Below are positions 36,049 through 44,796 of a stretch of DNA of 64,000 nucleotides, piece after piece. Location of the stretch: assembly GCA_905480425.1 (NCBI GenBank), contig CAJQQG010000011.1:1-64000 (forward strand). Reading direction: 5' to 3'. The first letter of the stretch is position 1. Every line of letters starts with the position of its first letter. The position numbers and the translations under genes are program-made. Source of the stretch: an uncultured Flavobacteriaceae bacterium. Its GTDB lineage: Bacteria > Bacteroidota > Bacteroidia > Flavobacteriales > Flavobacteriaceae. The notes under the pieces are model-generated. The model worked only from the letters and a program-made list of their open reading frames with translations, ran no database searches and was not told where the DNA came from.

Positions 36049-37026
36049 ATGGCAGCAGTAGAACCTATCCTCCAAGAAAACGAAAATCGTTTCGTTATTT
36101 TCCCAATCCAACACCATGATATATGGGAATGGTATAAAAAGATGGAGGCTAGTTTTTGGACAGCCGAAGAAATTGATTTACATCAAGATTTGACGGATTG
36201 GAATACAAAATTAACTAATGATGAACAATATTTCATCAAGCATATTCTAGCTTTTTTTGCTGCATCGGATGGTATTGTAAATGAAAATCTTGCTGAGAAT
36301 TTTGTTAATGAAGTACAGTACTCTGAAGCTAAATTTTTCTATGGTTTTCAGATTATGATGGAAAATATCCATTCAGAAACGTATTCTTTATTAATCGATA
36401 CGTATGTGAAAGACGATGCTGAAAAAGACAATCTTTTCAAGGCTATTGAAGTTTTTCCAGCTATTAAGAAAAAAGCAGATTGGGCATTACAGTGGATTGA
36501 TTCAGATTCTTTTGCCGAACGTTTAATTGCTTTTGCAGCTGTTGAAGGAATTTTCTTCTCAGGAGCATTCTGTTCTATTTATTGGTTAAAGAAAAGAGGA
36601 TTAATGCCAGGTCTTACATTTTCAAATGAGTTAATATCTAGAGATGAAGGAGTGCATTGTGATTTTGCAGTTCACTTACACAATCATCACTTGGTAAATA
36701 AAGTACCTCCAGCTCGAATTAAAGAAATTCTTCTTGACGCATTAACAATTGAGCGCGAGTTTATCACAGAATCTTTACCAATCAGTTTGATTGGTATGAA
36801 TGCTAAGTTGATGACCCAATATTTAGAATTTGTAACCGATCGCCTTCTTACAGAACTAAACTTGGAGAAAGAGTTTAACGTAACCAATCCATTTGACTTT
36901 ATGGATATGATATCCTTACAAGGAAAAACAAATTTCTTTGAGAAGCGAGTAGGTGAATACCAAAAAGCGGGTGTTCTAAATGCAGAAGATCAAGAGACAA
37001 AAATCAGCTTTGACGCAGATTTTTGA
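36049..37026 (+). CDS. nrdB: Ribonucleotide reductase class Ia, small (R2) subunit
   Basis: Carries the metal-radical centre that starts ribonucleotide reduction. 325 residues. E105, H108 and the radical tyrosine Y112 are in [12 protein letters not shown], and the second ligand set is in [12 protein letters not shown] and [10 protein letters not shown]. Large stretches are close to eukaryotic R2 ([35 protein letters not shown]). Keeping the Tyr indicates a tyrosyl-radical enzyme, not a Tyr-less subclass. Lies 69 bases ahead of nrdA; a leader of over 40 bases carries TTAGAATCTTTG, also found before rimP. Confidence 0.97.
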
Positions 37027-37095
37027 TCTAAAGACACCCTAACTAATTTTTTTCTGTTTTTCAGAAAAAATCAATAATTTTTAAATATCACCCCT

Positions 37096-39549
37096 ATGTT
37101 TGTACTCAAGAGAGATGGCCGTAAAGAGCCCATTATGTTCGATAAAATTACCGCTCGAATTCGTAAATTGAACTATGGATTAAATCCATTAGTAGATCCT
37201 GTTCGAATTGCAATGCGTGTAATTGAAGGACTTTATGATGGAGTTACGACTTCGGGCTTGGACAATCTTGCAGCTGAGGTTGCTGCCACGATGACCACAT
37301 CTCATCCTGACTACGCAAAATTAGCGGCTCGTATATCAGTTTCTAATTTACACAAGAATACCAAAAAATCTTTTTCTGAAACCATGGCTGACTTGTATCA
37401 GTATGTAAATCCTAGAACAGGTAAAAAGGCTCCTTTACTTTCGGATGAGGTTTATGAGATTATTCAAAAAAATGCTGATAAGTTAGATTCAAATATTATT
37501 TATAATAGAGATTTTGGGTATGACTTCTTTGGTTTCAAAACATTAGAACGCTCTTATTTACTGAAGTTAAACGGAGAAATTGTAGAACGGCCACAGCACA
37601 TGTTGATGCGTGTTTCTGTGGGAATTCATTTAGACGATATTGATTCTGTTCTTGAGACTTACGAGCTGATGTCTAAAAGATATTTTACACACGCAACACC
37701 TACATTATTTAATTCAGGAACACCTAAGCCGCAGATGTCTTCATGTTTTTTATTGACTATGAAAGACGACAGTATTGATGGTATCTACGACACTTTAAAG
37801 CAGACTGCTCGAATTTCGCAGTCAGCAGGAGGTATTGGACTGTCTATTCACAATGTGCGCGCTACAGGTTCTTATATAGCAGGAACAAATGGAACTTCTA
37901 ATGGAATTGTACCGATGTTACGTGTTTTTAACGATACCGCACGATATGTTGATCAAGGTGGAGGAAAAAGGAAAGGTTCCTTTGCAATTTATGTAGAGCC
38001 GTGGCATGCTGATATTTTTGAATTCTTAGAGTTGAAAAAGAACCATGGAAAAGAAGAAATGCGGGCACGCGATTTGTTTTATGCTATGTGGACACCAGAT
38101 TTATTCATGAAGCGAGTAGAACAAAACGCAGAATGGACATTAATGTGTCCTAACGAATGTCCTGATCTTTTTAATGTCCATGGAGATGAATTTGATAAAC
38201 TTTACCTTAAATATGAATCAGAGGGAAAAGGACGAAAAACAATCAAAGCACGAGAACTTTGGGAGAAGATTTTAGAATCTCAAATTGAAACAGGTACTCC
38301 ATACATGCTTTATAAGGACGCTGCCAATAGAAAATCTAATCAGAAAAATATAGGCACCATTCGTTCTTCAAATTTATGTACAGAAATTATGGAGTATACT
38401 TCTCCAGATGAGGTAGCTGTATGTAATTTAGCCTCTATAGCTTTACCTATGTTTATTAAAGATGACGCTTTTGATCACCAGGCGTTATTTGATGTAACAG
38501 TTCGTGTAACGAAAAATTTAAACCGCGTGATTGATCGCAATTACTATCCGGTAATTGAAGCCCAAAACTCAAACTTCAGGCACCGTCCTGTAGGATTAGG
38601 AGTTCAAGGACTCGCAGATGCATTCATAATGTTACGCTTGCCTTTTACGTCTGACAAAGCAAAAGAGCTAAATCAAGAAATTTTTGAAACTCTTTATTTT
38701 GCAGCTTTAACGGCTTCAGCAGAAGAAGCTAAAAATGATGGTCCTTATGAAAGCTACAAAGGCTCTCCAATTTCAAAAGGGGAATTCCAACATAACTTAT
38801 GGGGAATAAAAGATGAAGAATTAAGCGGACGATGGGACTGGGCTGCTTTACGCAAAACAATAAAAAAACAAGGTGTTAGAAATTCACTTTTAGTAGCACC
38901 TATGCCAACTGCTAGTACTTCTCAAATCCTTGGAAATAACGAATGTTTTGAACCCTATACCTCTAATATTTATACAAGACGTGTTCTTTCGGGAGAGTTT
39001 ATTGTTGTTAACAAGCATCTCTTAGAAGACCTTGTGGATCGCGGATTATGGGATGAAGACATGAAGCAACAATTGATGCGCAATAATGGATCTGTTCAAA
39101 GTATCGAAGGTATTCCAGATGATTTAAAAGAACTATATCGTACGGTTTGGGAAATGAGTATGAAAGATATCATAGACATGTCTCGCCAACGAGGATATTT
39201 TATTGATCAATCACAATCTTTGAATCTCTTTATGGAAGGAGCCACTATGGCCAAACTAACATCAATGCACTTTTATGGATGGAAATCGGGATTAAAAACA
39301 GGAATGTATTACTTGAGAACCAAATCCGCAGTTGATGCCATTAAGTTCACACTAGACAATTCAAAAAAAGAAAAAAGCACACCGATAGCTGAAGCTATAA
39401 CAACAACAGTTTCTCAGACTGCAGCTGCTAGTGCAATAGCCCCACAGCCAGCTGTTCCAGTTGAGCCTTTAACACCACAGGAGCTTAAGCAAATGCTTGC
39501 GAAAGCCAAAGAAGGTGAAGATGACGATTGCTTGATGTGTGGATCTTAA
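37096..39549 (+). CDS. nrdA: Ribonucleotide reductase class Ia, large (R1) subunit
   Basis: Reduces ribonucleoside diphosphates to deoxy forms. 817 residues. An N-terminal ATP-cone (about 1-90, starting [15 protein letters not shown]) gives dATP feedback control. Active-site residues are C217 (SSCFLL), N426, C428 and E430 (SNLCTE) and C443. The C-terminal redox pair C812/C815 (CLMCGS) takes electrons from thioredoxin or glutaredoxin. The Ala/Pro-rich linker (about 755-795) before the tail is the usual flexible arm. Co-transcribed with nrdB. Confidence 0.97.
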
Positions 39550-39593
39550 TTGACATAATGATTTAATAACATTATTGATTAAATATTATTTAA

Positions 39594-39615
39594 AAGGTAA
39601 TAATAAGGTAATATC
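39594..39615 (+). promoter_or_regulatory. 11-bp-period direct repeat ahead of the phosphate uptake genes (possible PhoB-type box)
   Basis: AAGGTAATAAT is followed directly by AAGGTAATATC: two copies of AAGGTAATA on an 11-bp period, ending 50 bases before the porin ATG. PhoB/OmpR-type regulators bind direct repeats with just this period, and the two genes downstream are a phosphate-type porin and a phosphate permease. The sequence itself differs from the enterobacterial Pho box. Confidence 0.4.
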
Positions 39616-39665
39616 AAACTGTTTTTAAAATATGATTTTTGTTATGTAATTATATTAAAAACTAC

Positions 39666-40868
39666 ATGAAACAGTTAATATTATCTTTTTTGTTTATTCC
39701 CCTTGGTCTTTTACTTCAAGCTCAAGAAATTAGTGACACTAAATTTGGCAATGGAATGATAAATTTTATCGCAAAAGATAGTTCTTTTAGCGTAAAATTT
39801 GCACCTAGAGTTCAATCGCGTTACCAAAGTGAATGGAGTTATGATGGCGAAGATTATGATCCTGCAGATATCAATTTTTCAGTAAGAAGAGCACGATTGA
39901 AATTTGGGGGTTTTGCTTTTTCACCAAAATTAAAATACAAAATTGAATTGGGTCTTTCCAATCGTGATATTTCAGGAGCAAATATTTACAATAGAAATAC
40001 ACCACGGTATATCTTAGATGCTGTGGTCATGTGGAATTTTCACGAAAATTTTGAACTATGGGCTGGCCAAACAAAACTGCCAGGAAATATAGAAAGAGTT
40101 GTTTCTTCAGCAAACTTACAGTTGATTGATCGATCATTATTGAATAGTAAATTTAATATTGATCGAGATATAGGTATTCAATTACGGCACAAATTAAGAT
40201 TGGGTGGTAACTGGATTATAAAAGAAAAGTTCTCAATTTCACAGGGTGAAGGAAGAAATATAACCGAAGGAAATATAGGGGGACTTCAATATACCTCAAG
40301 ACTTGAATTACTTCCTTTTGGTGAATTCTCTTCAAAGGGTGATTATTCCCAAGGAGACTTAAAACGTGAAAAATCAATTAAAGCCATGTTTGGTTTTACC
40401 TATGACATTAATGAAAATGCAGTAAAAAGTAGAAGTAATATGGGCTCTTATTTAATACAATCTAGTGGAGGATTATTTGAGACTGACATTACTACTATAT
40501 TTCTGGATGGTGTTATTAAATATAACGGCTTCGCATTGACGGGAGAGTATGCAAATAGAGATGCTGATCAAATTGAAGCTTTAGAAGAAGATGGTAGAAC
40601 AAAAACAGGAGCGGTAGTGGGTGCAGGATCTGCTTCAAACATACAAGGAAGTTATCTTTTTAAAAATAACTTTGAAATTACTGCACGATATACTAATATT
40701 AATTTTAAAAAAATTACTCGTCTATCAGACCTTAACCAAATCACATTTGGGGTGTCAAAGTATGTTGTGGGACATAGTTTAAAAATTCAAGCAGACATTA
40801 GCCTTTTAAATGCTAGTGGAATAAAAGATAATGTACTTTTCAGAACAGGATTTGATCTTCATTTTTAA
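39666..40868 (+). CDS. Phosphate-selective porin O/P family outer-membrane protein
   Basis: 400 residues from the ATG giving MKQLILSFLFIPLGLLLQAQ, a clean signal peptide; an earlier start at 39639 would bury it. The mature part alternates beta strands as in 16-18-strand OprO/OprP porins, with the early SVKFAPRVQSRY and FSVRRARLKFGGF and a C-terminal strand ending in Phe (GFDLHF). Followed after 58 bases by a PiT permease, which supports phosphate uptake. Confidence 0.88.
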   Translation: MKQLILSFLFIPLGLLLQAQEISDTKFGNGMINFIAKDSSFSVKFAPRVQSRYQSEWSYDGEDYDPADINFSVRRARLKFGGFAFSPKLKYKIELGLSNRDISGANIYNRNTPRYILDAVVMWNFHENFELWAGQTKLPGNIERVVSSANLQLIDRSLLNSKFNIDRDIGIQLRHKLRLGGNWIIKEKFSISQGEGRNITEGNIGGLQYTSRLELLPFGEFSSKGDYSQGDLKREKSIKAMFGFTYDINENAVKSRSNMGSYLIQSSGGLFETDITTIFLDGVIKYNGFALTGEYANRDADQIEALEEDGRTKTGAVVGAGSASNIQGSYLFKNNFEITARYTNINFKKITRLSDLNQITFGVSKYVVGHSLKIQADISLLNASGIKDNVLFRTGFDLHF

Positions 40869-40926
40869 TAATTTGATAACGTAGAGATTGATATTAATAC
40901 TGATCTTTACCAATAATAAATTTTTT

Positions 40927-43167
40927 ATGGATAATATTTACTTATATATGTTGATTGCTCTTGCCGTTTTGGCAGTTGCAGACATAGTTGTAGGAGTTAG
41001 TAATGATGCTATTAACTTTTTGAATTCAGCAATAGGCTCAAAAGCAATCTCAATAAGAACCATTATGATTGTCGCAAGTTTAGGGATTTTTATTGGTGCT
41101 GTTTTTTCAAGTGGTATGATGGAAGTGGCTCGAAAAGGTATTTTTAATCCAGGCTCTTTTTACTTTGATGAAATTATGATCATTTTCATGGCTGTAATTA
41201 TAACGGATATACTCCTCCTTGATTTCTTTAATACATTAGGCCTTCCTACTTCAACAACGGTTTCAATAGTTTTTAACCTCTTAGGTGCTTCTGTTGTAAT
41301 GTCTTTAATTAAAATCGGTGCTTCAGATGCTGAAACGATAGCTGATATAGGAAATTATATTAATACAGATAAAGCAATTACCATTATTAGTGGAATCCTC
41401 TTGTCTGTTATCATTGCCTTTTCTGTTGGTGCTTTTGTCCAATGGATTTCACGAATTATTTTTACCTTTCAATTTGAAAAGAAAGTAAAAAACTTTGGAG
41501 CTTTTTTTGGTGGAATTGCCCTTACCTCAATCACCTATTTTATTTTCATAAAAGGACTAAAAGGAACGCCATACTACAAAGAGCTTTCGGGTTTTTTGAA
41601 AAGCAATGAGCTTTTAATAGTTGCAATTGCTTTTTTTGCTTTAACAGCCCTTTCCTATTTTTTTCAAAAAATCTCTCAAAAAAGTATTTTAATAATTATC
41701 ATATTGGTAGGTACTTTTGGACTTGCTCTTGCTTTTTCAGGAAATGACTTAGTTAACTTTATTGGTGTTTCAATGGCAGCATATCATTCTTATGAAGCAT
41801 GGAGTATTTCTGGAATAGATCCAACCTTATTTTCAATGGAAGTTTTAGATAAGAAAGTACCTGCAGAACCACTTTTATTATTTATTGCGGGTGGAATTAT
41901 GGTAATTACTCTGTGGTTTTCTAAAAAAGCTAAAACTGTAGCAGAAACTGAAATAGGTTTATCTAGACAGAATGATACACATGAAAAATTTAAACCCAAT
42001 ATTTTTTCTAGAACACTTGTAAATTTATTTTTTGGTATTTCATCCGTAATAAGTGCAGTATTGCCAAAATCTTTTCATGATAGAATTGAGAAAAGTTATG
42101 AGCGAAATAATGCATTTATGCTTTCTAAAGATCAAAGTGTAGACGCCCCAGCTTTTGATATGATTAGAGCATCTGTTAACTTAATGGTTGCTGGTATTTT
42201 AATTTCGATAGCAACTGCTATGAAATTACCTTTATCAACTACATATGTAACCTTTATGGTGGCAATGGGAACCTCGCTTGCAGACAGAGCCTGGGGTAGG
42301 GAAAGTGCTGTGTATCGTGTTGCAGGTGTTGTAAGTGTTATAGGAGGCTGGTTTTTAACAGCTTTAGGAGCCTTTTTAGCTTCAGGGGTGGTTGTCTTTC
42401 TAATCCGATGGGATAAAGTAACTATGATCCCAATTCTTTTGCTTTTAACAATTCTTTTACTTCTAAGAAACTTTATTAAACACAAAAATAAGGATGTAAA
42501 AATAGATTCCAATCAACTTAGAAAATATGAAAGTAGCACTGTTCAAGGCATTATTTCAGAAAGTGCTGAAAATATTATTGCTGTAATTTCAAGAGCTAGT
42601 AAAATTTATGCCAACTTTTTAGAGGGACTTTCTACTCAAAACTCAGACCTATTAAAAAAGAGTAAAAAAGGGGTAGCGAAGTTAGATGGTGAGATAGAGG
42701 ACCTTAGAGATAATATTTTCTTTTTGATTAAAAATTTAGATGAAACTAGTGTCCGAGGAAGTAATTTTTATATTATAATATTAGCTTATCTAACTGATAT
42801 AGCACAATCTTTAGAGTTTATTTCTAAGAAGAGTTACAAACATGTAAATAATCAGCATCAAAAGTTGAAATTTAATCAATTCAAAGATTTAAAGGAAATA
42901 GAAGACCGGTTGGATTTACTGTATAAAGAAATAATTGATATTTTTAATAGCAGAAAATTCGAGAGAATCGCTTTTGTGATAGCTCAAAAGAATGAGTTAC
43001 TAGGTCTTATTTCCATGAAAATTGACACTCAAATTGAGCGAACACGATCGGAAGAATCAAGCCCTAAAAACACCACGCTTTATTTCAATATTTTACTTGA
43101 AACGAAAGACTTAGTTAATAGTATCATGAATTTGATGGAAGAATATTATGATAGTTATAAAAAATAA
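40927..43167 (+). CDS. PiT-family inorganic phosphate transporter with fused PhoU-like domain
   Basis: 746 residues from the ATG giving MDNIYLYMLIAL; the longer ORF start adds 13 residues. Inner-membrane H+ or Na+/phosphate symporter with about a dozen helices. The duplicated family signatures are GVSNDAINFLNSAIGSKA near residue 25 and FSGNDLVNFIGVSMAAYHS near 275. The C-terminal about 200 residues are soluble and helical, resembling the PhoU/DUF47 domain usually encoded as a separate gene beside pit. An unrelated inserted stretch (about 345-395) links the halves. Downstream of the porin gene. Confidence 0.9.
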   Translation: MDNIYLYMLIALAVLAVADIVVGVSNDAINFLNSAIGSKAISIRTIMIVASLGIFIGAVFSSGMMEVARKGIFNPGSFYFDEIMIIFMAVIITDILLLDFFNTLGLPTSTTVSIVFNLLGASVVMSLIKIGASDAETIADIGNYINTDKAITIISGILLSVIIAFSVGAFVQWISRIIFTFQFEKKVKNFGAFFGGIALTSITYFIFIKGLKGTPYYKELSGFLKSNELLIVAIAFFALTALSYFFQKISQKSILIIIILVGTFGLALAFSGNDLVNFIGVSMAAYHSYEAWSISGIDPTLFSMEVLDKKVPAEPLLLFIAGGIMVITLWFSKKAKTVAETEIGLSRQNDTHEKFKPNIFSRTLVNLFFGISSVISAVLPKSFHDRIEKSYERNNAFMLSKDQSVDAPAFDMIRASVNLMVAGILISIATAMKLPLSTTYVTFMVAMGTSLADRAWGRESAVYRVAGVVSVIGGWFLTALGAFLASGVVVFLIRWDKVTMIPILLLLTILLLLRNFIKHKNKDVKIDSNQLRKYESSTVQGIISESAENIIAVISRASKIYANFLEGLSTQNSDLLKKSKKGVAKLDGEIEDLRDNIFFLIKNLDETSVRGSNFYIIILAYLTDIAQSLEFISKKSYKHVNNQHQKLKFNQFKDLKEIEDRLDLLYKEIIDIFNSRKFERIAFVIAQKNELLGLISMKIDTQIERTRSEESSPKNTTLYFNILLETKDLVNSIMNLMEEYYDSYKK

Positions 43168-43476
43168 GATTTATTTTTAGAGAAATTAAATCTTATGTCA
43201 TAGTTGCTGTATTAAAATATTTATAATAAAGAGGATAGCTATTCAACCGTACCTTTTTTTAGCTTGATAATAAGCTAAATATTGACCTAACAATAATATG
43301 ATCCTATGTCAAATAATTAAAGACTATTGGCACTACTAGAAGGCATTATTTTTAGTTACACAAGATTATTTTATTTAAATGTTAATTATGCTCAGTTCAC
43401 TATTAAGTAAATGTTATCATATTTATTTTTATTAAAGTTTACTTTACATATGATTTAAGAATCCTAAATTTGTAGG
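43168..43476. other. AT-rich intergenic region between pit and dgt
   Basis: 309 bases with no gene I can support. It holds a 6-bp inverted repeat (TAGCTT/AAGCTA, 43260-43277) lacking a following T tract in either direction, and, at its end, a -7 element for dgt. Confidence 0.6.
43465..43472 (+). promoter_or_regulatory. dgt: -7 element directly ahead of dgt
   Basis: TAAATTTG, a full TAnnTTTG match, ends 4 bases before the dgt ATG. If used, the transcript would start at or next to the ATG and be almost leaderless. Confidence 0.4.
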
Positions 43477-44796
43477 ATGGAATGGGAATCATTATTATCA
43501 TTAAAACGCTTTGGTGACAAGAATAAACGCTTACGAATAGAACAAGATGATCTGCGTTTAGGATTTGAAGTGGATTATGATAGGATTGTATTTTCAAATG
43601 CTTTTCGAAGCTTGCAGGATAAAACACAAGTCATTCCTTTTTCAAAAACAGATTTTGTTCATACACGTTTAACCCATAGTTTAGAAGTCTCAGTAGTAGG
43701 AAGAAGTTTGGGACGTATTGCAGGGAAAGCTATTCTTGAAAAGTATCCACATTTACAAGCTACCCTAGGCTATCAGCCAAATGATTTTGGTGCTATAGTT
43801 GCAGCCGCTGCATTAGCTCATGACATAGGCAATCCTCCTTTTGGACATAGTGGAGAAAAGGCTATTGGTCATTTCTTTACTTCGGGATCTGGAAAGGGAT
43901 TCAAAGATTCATTAACGCCTATAGAATATCAAGATTTATGTGATTTTGAGGGAAATGCAAATGGATTAAAAATTTTAACAGAATCCCAAATAGGAACACC
44001 GGGAGGTTTAAGACTAAGCTATGCTACGTTGGGCGCTTTTATAAAGTATCCCAAAGGTAGCTTACCTAAAAAGCCCTCTGATCATGTGGCTGATAAAAAG
44101 TATGGCTATTTTCAAGCTCAAGCTCCTTTTTTTGAAGATCTCATTCAAGAACTAGCATTACCTGTTGAGCAAGGACCCATTCGCCACCCGCTAACTTATT
44201 TAGTGGAAGCGGCAGATGATATATGCTACACTATTATAGATTTTGAAGATGGGATTAACTTAGGGTGGATTTCAGAAGATTTCGCCTTAGAATATTTAAT
44301 CAATTTAGTTAGAGATAAAATTGATACAAAGAAGTACGCACAATTGGTATATAAGCCACAGCGGTTAAGTTATCTCAGAGCACTTGCAATTAATAGTTTA
44401 ATTCAAGATGCCATCTATATTTTTATTGAAAATGAAGCATCTATTTTAAAAGGAACCTTTGAGGTTTCACTTTTGGATAAAAGTAAATACAAGGCTCAAA
44501 TTGAAGATATTATTAACCTAAGTATTGAAAATATTTACCAATCACGAGAGGTTGTTCAAAAAGAAGTAGTTGGTCACCGAGCAATTTCAACCTTATTAGA
44601 GCATTATACCAATGCAGCTGTTAGAATGTTTAAGGGAATTCCAAATTCTCATGATAAATTGATTCTTTCTTTAGTTGATGAGGGAACATCTATCCAAGGA
44701 AATACCTTATATGAAACCCTTTTAAATGCAACCTGTTATGTAGCTAGTCTTTCTGATGGAAAAGCTTTAAGGATGGCACAAGATATTGGCGGTTAA
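43477..44796 (+). CDS. dgt: Deoxyguanosinetriphosphate triphosphohydrolase
   Basis: HD-domain enzyme releasing triphosphate from dNTPs, helping balance nucleotide pools. 439 residues. Metal ligands are H67 (RLTHSLEV), H115 and D116 (ALAHDIGNPPFGHSGE), with the fourth aspartate in EAADDICYTIID. NAFRSLQDKTQV at the start is characteristic. The family also includes broader dNTPases, so strict dGTP specificity is not certain. Confidence 0.94.
   Translation: MEWESLLSLKRFGDKNKRLRIEQDDLRLGFEVDYDRIVFSNAFRSLQDKTQVIPFSKTDFVHTRLTHSLEVSVVGRSLGRIAGKAILEKYPHLQATLGYQPNDFGAIVAAAALAHDIGNPPFGHSGEKAIGHFFTSGSGKGFKDSLTPIEYQDLCDFEGNANGLKILTESQIGTPGGLRLSYATLGAFIKYPKGSLPKKPSDHVADKKYGYFQAQAPFFEDLIQELALPVEQGPIRHPLTYLVEAADDICYTIIDFEDGINLGWISEDFALEYLINLVRDKIDTKKYAQLVYKPQRLSYLRALAINSLIQDAIYIFIENEASILKGTFEVSLLDKSKYKAQIEDIINLSIENIYQSREVVQKEVVGHRAISTLLEHYTNAAVRMFKGIPNSHDKLILSLVDEGTSIQGNTLYETLLNATCYVASLSDGKALRMAQDIGG

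Follow-up and report, generated by a model that had tools for sequence, protein, structure and literature searches.

A direct repeat with an 11-bp period stands ahead of a phosphate-selective porin gene in a 64,000-nucleotide stretch of DNA (hereafter the window) from an uncultured marine flavobacterium, and comparison with relatives suggests that it is probably a diverged copy of a phosphate-regulon operator, or 'Pho box', of the Flavobacteriaceae, with a PhoB-like protein as its putative binder. Most likely, the repeat would set the expression of the porin gene and of the PiT permease gene behind it by phosphate supply. The repeat itself is plain to see, its position is conserved among relatives, and it is associated there with porin, PiT and, in part, phoB genes.

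The repeat and its genomic setting

The window belongs to a flavobacterial assembly of 1.85 Mb that is 85% complete (G000), from an organism close to MS024-2A; a near-twin (G180, with a porin 98% identical) is Flavobacteria bacterium MS024-2A isolate FRAM18_bin161. The gene order is nrdB, nrdA, a 116-bp spacer, the porin gene, the PiT gene and a dGTPase-like gene. The features discussed below are as follows.

39555 to 39575, + strand: weak box-like site ATAATGATTTAATAACATTAT, 5' of the porin box; matrix score 8.35
39594 to 39615, + strand: direct repeat, AAGGTAATAAT (39594-39604) and AAGGTAATATC (39605-39615); a single exact place in the genome
39596 to 39628, + strand: porin box, in the same register as in relatives, of GGTAATAATAA, GGTAATATCAA and, as a degenerate third unit, ACTGTTTTTAA
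39629 to 39641, + strand: spacer and TTTG −7-like element of the porin, GATTTTTG; the consensus is TAnnTTTG, of which the TA is not matched
39666 to 40868, + strand: phosphate-selective porin O/P (Porin_O_P; PF07396, E 2.6e-10)
40864 to 40896, + strand: second box, before PiT, TTTAATAATTT, GATAACGTAGA and GATTGATATTA; overlaps the porin stop codon
40897 to 40909, + strand: spacer and CTTTA −7-like element of the PiT box
40927 to 43167, + strand: PiT phosphate permease (PHO4; PF01384, E 1.8e-30)

The original prediction of two adjacent 11-bp copies is exact in its coordinates, with 9 bases identical at an offset of 11 bp, and the porin and PiT genes that it placed downstream are borne out by the Porin_O_P and PHO4/PiT domain matches. 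The porin start is most likely the ATG at 39666 rather than the TTG at 39639 of the open reading frame list, because on a reading of the translation that ATG opens a signal peptide. Over positions 36049-44796, ribonucleotide reductase and dGTPase-like genes flank the phosphate uptake genes (nrdBA-porin-PiT-dgt). As read from translations only, a dgt-like gene adjoins porin-pstS in two further loci (L253 and L254), and an nrdA-like gene adjoins a gene for a MORN-like protein in another two (L269 and L277).

The sequence AAGGTAATANNAAGGTAATA occurs without mismatch at one place in the 1.85-Mb assembly, and a search of the whole assembly with up to three mismatches gave 4 places, whereas its reversed control gave 17. 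In literal form, the 22-mer is thus not a repeated element of this genome, and it was rejected as a genome-wide motif. A repeat of at least 9 bp at offset 11 arose in 43 of 5000 dinucleotide shuffles of the 116-bp spacer, which has a G+C content of 15%, and at any offset from 9 to 12 in 170 of 5000. Over the whole window there are three such repeats at offset 11, compared to a shuffle mean of 0.45 and a maximum of 3 in 100 shuffles. Taken alone, the repeat is unusual and suggestive, short of decisive. As the shuffle statistics do not decide the question, it is comparison with relatives that settles it.

The box before porin and PiT genes

Porin promoters of other genera carry 11-bp direct repeats such as GGAAACATTAAGTTAACATT, in a block like TTAATAATTAG GAAACATTAAG TTAACATT that is followed by TTTGC and lies at a near-constant distance from the porin start codon. 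In G137, a member of the window genus, the porin block reads GGTAATGTTTT GGTAACATTAA CTTAATGTTTT. The conserved unit is better written as KWAAYATTWAG than as AAGGTAATA, and a third copy is frequent. The unit and box of the original prediction are refined accordingly, and a second box before PiT, absent from that prediction, is added.

By protein search, 146 of 149 family genomes have PiT. The comparison took in 90 of the 146 PiT loci, leaving out 56 PiT-bearing genomes, and loci of the window genus were gathered separately (match in 31 of 38 genomes); no PiT start was found in 8 of the 118 loci (L041, L051, L055, L059, L075, L082, L090 and L091). A matrix was trained on 46 porin promoters from other genera, with the window genus excluded and L050, at a contig edge, left out. 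Units 1-2 of this matrix were applied to the 95 bp before start codons, at a threshold score of 5 and without loci having less than 95 bp upstream.

All 53 porin promoters of other genera pass the threshold, most of them having belonged to the training set. In the window genus, a score of at least 5 was found before 12 of 14 porin genes. Before PiT genes that lie behind a porin, this score was reached in 45 of 54 cases in other genera and 8 of 14 in the window genus, and before PiT genes without a porin in 20 of 26, which gives 65 of 80 for the PiT starts of other genera combined. Other genes gave a raw count of 7 in 114, which becomes 3 in 110 because the four best of the seven control matches were porin starts missed by the filter. 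These data indicate that the box precedes phosphate-uptake genes and is rare before genes in general. Enrichment at phosphate genes, the check originally proposed, is not seen for the literal 22-mer in this genome, but is seen for the motif of relatives at porin, PiT and phoB genes, and to this extent the relatives favour the idea of a candidate phosphate box. A subclade of the window genus (L107-L117) has no porin before PiT; its PiT is diverged (51-54% identity) and reaches the threshold score in 0 of 11 cases. In the same porin-less subclade, L269 and L277 have a box beside the MORN-like gene instead.

The exact 20-mer GGNAACATTAANTTAACATT has 41 matches in 38 of the 149 genomes, compared to 0 for the reversed control. 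Directly before a porin lie 22 of these, one of them within a porin-pstS operon, and a further 17 lie at a distance of 64-80 bp from a MORN-like gene in divergent orientation; of these, 13 have porin or PiT no more than about 1.7 kb away and the other 4 are at different places. One of the remaining matches is at a duplicated porin leader and the other (in G071) is 1.4 kb before PiT. Altogether 36 of the 41 are at porin or PiT loci, with 13 of these nearer the MORN-like gene. As the pattern was derived from porin promoters, its porin matches carry a degree of circularity; the MORN-like gene, though uncharacterised, is an independent member of the set, and support for PiT rests on the matrix test at start codons, not on the 20-mer. 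The MORN-like protein is secreted, comprises about 118 residues and has MORN-like repeats, with MORN_2 below the Pfam cut-off, and is probably a further member of the regulon. Its gene diverges from a strong box in many genomes (L205:1120-1431, L214, L216, L219, L227 and L269), and varies in location, beside PiT or elsewhere. A looser pattern gave 26 matches within the window genus compared to 17 when reversed, which is not clean by count. By coordinates, these matches fall at phoB (7), porin (2), PiT (4) and elsewhere (7), with 6 more at a MORN-like gene beside PiT (genes inspected for 2 of the 6).

Within the window, the two-unit matrix gives the porin box a score of 9.4, which 15 of 1000 shuffles reach, and with the genus left out of training the box is third in rank over the whole window, both strands counted; the two higher-scoring positions fall within genes. 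The three-unit matrix was rejected for this site (score 0.2, 12 of 200 shuffles). It fails because the third unit is worn, and the two-unit matrix detects the box. Outside open reading frames of at least 150 codons, the three best sites of the matrix scan are the porin box, the site at 39555 and the PiT box. A role for the 39555..39575 site is doubtful, and its counterpart in the near-twin scores just 1.3. The PiT box of the window scores 7.5 (2 of 200 shuffles), and is the best site at the matching place in all 14 porin-bearing loci of the genus, where eight of the 14 scores are at least 5 and five are below 1.

Unit 1 through TTTG, end bases included, spans 46 nt in the window and in G137, G156, G152, G161 and G162. 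Counting the window, the genus has this span at 6 of its 14 porin loci; the others differ or are without TTTG near the best site, and at the G179 porin locus a second TTTG ends at 46. For PiT, the span to TTTG or TTTA is 46 nt in all 14 loci of the genus, window included, where TTT[GA] is a loose element, and ATTTGC follows the PiT site in 21 of the 25 other-genus loci listed. As the 46-nt span is shared with relatives and the third unit is degenerate, the porin copy in the window appears to be rightly placed yet worn.

It could be argued that the box family is real but that the 22-mer of the window arose by chance or by slippage within an A+T-rich spacer, such that only the PiT box works. The near-twin has one AAGGTAATA unit, a spacer 11 bp shorter and no good box at the porin, which would fit this idea, as would the low three-unit score and the appearance of such a repeat in 43 of 5000 shuffled spacers. 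We nevertheless consider it somewhat unlikely, as both units share register and spacing with the boxes of G137, G156, G152, G161 and G162, and as a matrix built without the genus places the site third in the whole window.

The presumed regulator and related systems

At E 1e-40, 59 of 60 family genomes yielded a PhoB-like regulator, as did 32 of 38 genomes of the window genus at E <1e-50. The G000 assembly contains none at E <1e-50, and the phoB region of the near-twin falls between the ends of its contigs C46 and C67, leaving a gap of ~6.3 kb of G180 sequence. Because the two contigs end exactly there, phoB of the window genome is most likely merely unassembled; loss from the species, whose near-twin has the gene, was rejected as unlikely. 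For the G180 PhoB, the best two families are TIGR02154 and NF053854, both under cut-off (211.3/296.2 and 202/270 bits, respectively), and the TIGR02154 cut-off was exceeded in 0 of 60 family genomes.

The region upstream of phoB was scanned without loci L163, L199 and L202. Sites resembling TTAATACTTTGGTAACATAA and ending 38-40 nt before phoB were found in 14 of 28 genus genomes (at most 10 of 200 shuffles), with G163 and G164 sharing one sequence, and reverse-strand sites precede phoB in 5 of 9 genomes of other genera. The closest relatives (G180, G137 and G156) have no clean phoB box at the usual place, and the site that G180 does have is closer to the start. A cluster in G002 joins phoB and a histidine kinase to genes for a TonB receptor, a lipoprotein-like protein, a porin and PiT; sites precede the last three of these, and none scoring at least 11 lies between phoB and the TonB receptor gene. 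PstS is rare (12 of 149 genomes) and was not found in G000. A boxed porin, with the box 40-60 nt before it, precedes pstS at 6 of 11 pstS loci (L249-L254). Of the five without one, L248 has boxes only near a MORN-like gene, L255 has a weak site, and L256, L257 and L259 have no site above 12.

We propose that an OmpR/PhoB-type response regulator, most likely a PhoB-like protein, would bind head-to-tail on 11-bp units of approximately KWAAYATTWAG. At least two units would occupy the −33 region, with their 3' edge some 13 nt short of the last base of a weak TTTG −7 element, and the bound regulator would replace the −33 element and recruit RNA polymerase. The TAnnTTTG element is described as sitting at −12 to −5 in the text available for PMC9723704. 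If TTTG lies at about −8 to −5, the units in the window would cover roughly −50 to −18, including −33, and both −7 elements of the window (GATTTTTG and GATCTTTA) are without the consensus TA. On these predicted start sites, the layout is the geometry of an activator-dependent promoter. As the window has one box before each gene, outer-membrane entry and inner-membrane uptake could be controlled jointly, and PiT also alone. PhoB would be the binder, phosphate the signal and activation the effect, and the worn copy in the window would still work. In the available text on Flavobacterium johnsoniae, the TonB receptor, lipoprotein and phoB are reported as phosphate-induced; against the proposal, the phoBR-linked oprP is not induced under phosphate depletion (log2 −1.3, p 0.25) (PMC8115612). 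Also counting against the proposal are the low three-unit score of the porin site, the lack of enrichment of the literal 22-mer, the single unit in the near-twin, the 46-nt span at no more than 6 of 14 porin loci, the want of a clean phoB box in the closest relatives, the gap at phoB in G000, the sub-cut-off PhoB scores, the five pstS loci without a boxed porin, the PiT genes of the porin-less subclade and the looser-pattern counts in the genus. The sign of control may instead be repression, since deletion of phoPR in Riemerella is reported to raise pstS eightfold, from what is accessible of PMC5399024.

A further possibility is that the operator is real but is bound by another OmpR-family regulator, responding for example to redox or envelope state, with the phosphate genes as part of its regulon. 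There are several OmpR-type regulators per genome, and 17 of the 41 exact 20-mer matches are nearest to the MORN-like gene. The motif also resembles the 11-bp direct repeats of Escherichia coli ArcA as described in PMC3798270, and a likeness to ArcA is remarked upon by the authors of the Riemerella study, where 583 DAP-seq peaks are given for PhoP in the text seen (PMC9603813). We judge this possibility to be quite improbable, given that 36 of the 41 matches are at porin or PiT loci, that the motif stands before phoB in part of the genomes, and that phoB and its kinase sit in the same cluster in G002. That the repeat has no regulatory meaning, its conservation being that of a general promoter or leader sequence, would suit a conserved block that is partly the TTTG −7 element and an A-rich leader, but is extremely doubtful and already largely refuted by the exact-pattern and start-codon tests, as just 3 of 110 other genes reach the score typical of most porin and PiT genes and the reversed exact pattern has 0 matches in 149 genomes.

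Returning to the reading as a phosphate-regulon operator, the PHO box is described as two 11-nt direct repeat units with head-to-tail binding and a core that varies between species (PMC4415409, as far as its text was available). The PHO box of E. coli, Bacillus subtilis and others and the flavobacterial box are alike in having a conserved core within direct repeat units of 11 nt, at least two in number, and in standing before phosphate genes. The core is CTGTCAT for the PHO box of PhoB and about TAAYATT for the flavobacterial box, which often has three units. The E. coli-type Pho box stands before a TATAAT-like −10 element, whereas the flavobacterial box precedes the Bacteroidota −7 element TTTG. 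Identity with the E. coli-type box was rejected, as CTGTCAT-N4-CTGTCA has no match on either strand of the window. The original prediction had stated this difference from the enterobacterial box and suggested a lineage-specific version; we file the repeat as such a variant, with its own core in relatives and with putative membership of the PhoB system.

Riemerella belongs to the same order as the window organism. The most conserved bases of the Riemerella anatipestifer PhoP motif, obtained by DAP-seq, are TTTAACA, and PhoP binds upstream of its own operon, according to the text seen of PMC9603813. The flavobacterial box resembles that motif as described, a likeness at the level of the motif; the same paper compares its motif with that of ArcA, the word 'porin' occurs 0 times in the available text, and its passages show no box at a porin or PiT gene. 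E. coli ArcA sites are described as holding two to five 11-bp centre-to-centre direct repeats (PMC3798270, in part). The repeat period is thus alike, with often three to five copies in the ArcA box, but regulator and regulon differ, and the flavobacterial box, unlike the ArcA box, associates with phosphate uptake genes.

The F. johnsoniae PHO regulon has phoBR beside oprP, a TonB receptor and a lipoprotein, like the G002 neighbourhood; it was defined by RNA-seq and proteomics, with oprP not induced, and the term 'Pho box' is absent from the available text (PMC8115612). Putative Pho boxes are marked near plcP in marine bacteria, the sequence not being given in the text seen (PMC4796936), and Bacteroides fragilis PhoB is reported to bind the pstC promoter as a 512-bp fragment in the portion seen of PMC3547664. 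No flavobacterial Pho box is spelled out in the literature searched, which held few subscription papers and no supplements.

A candidate small RNA and the wider regulon

Many other genera have a second element, placed between the porin box and the gene upstream of it. Its promoter region, where further repeats at 11-bp spacing accompany an ATATTTG-like element, is followed by a stretch of ~100 nt in which TTAGTTTTTGTCGACT occupies a predicted hairpin loop and is followed by a terminator. This is a candidate small RNA of ~100 nt, encoded 5' of the phosphate porin (L013:15-141, L010:31-157, L249, L261 and others), and its loop AGUUUUUGUCGAC is complementary to the porin leader. The seed is present in 43 of 53 other-genus porin loci. 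As a 16-mer, it occurs at 55 places in 50 of 149 genomes, with 0 for the reversed control; by coordinates, 52 of the 55 places are at porin-PiT or porin-pst loci, a few being the leader itself. Exact leader complementarity of at least 11 nt was found at 39 of 67 porin loci and 0 of 37 PiT-only loci, where starts less than 140 bp from the locus edge had been left out (67 of 68 porin and 37 of 42 other loci kept). Across 39 loci, a leader matches the upstream element of its own genome more closely than the elements of other genomes (mean 14.36 vs 13.17; 0 of 5000 permutations), by a statistic that ignores relatedness.

Compensatory changes are seen in the terminator among 30 sequences. RNAalifold on the small-RNA alignment supports the seed hairpin and terminator only, and the long middle stem of single-sequence folds, which is without such support, was rejected. 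A search of Rfam with 12 porin loci, including that of the window, gave 5 matches up to E 1, with none above the gathering score. At one locus (L011, in G122), the upstream element forms an exact inverted repeat of 34 nt with the porin promoter and leader. The complementarity there extends past the likely transcription start, which argues for copying between the arms rather than selection for RNA pairing, suggesting template-switch copying. The exact seed 16-mer is absent from G000 and G137, complementarity is at most 9 nt at the 14 porin loci of the window genus, and the candidate small RNA was not seen in that genus.

A wider regulon is conceivable, and we put it forward tentatively, as a reading with something less than an even claim. 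Across the Flavobacteriaceae, a dedicated operator of two to four units of approximately KWAAYATTWAG would control the porin, PiT or porin-pst, phoB, the MORN-like protein and the small RNA. The ~100-nt RNA, present in most other genera seen, would be encoded just 5' of the porin, with repeats of its own in front, and would pair through its loop with the porin leader, such that phosphate entry would be controlled by transcription plus RNA. The window genus would have retained both boxes and lost the RNA.

Flavobacteria recycle much of the organic matter of the surface ocean, where phosphate is often scarce. A searchable motif would make it possible to read the phosphate regulon from the genomes of uncultured organisms, and the Riemerella PhoP motif, until now likened to that of ArcA, would gain a phosphate context.
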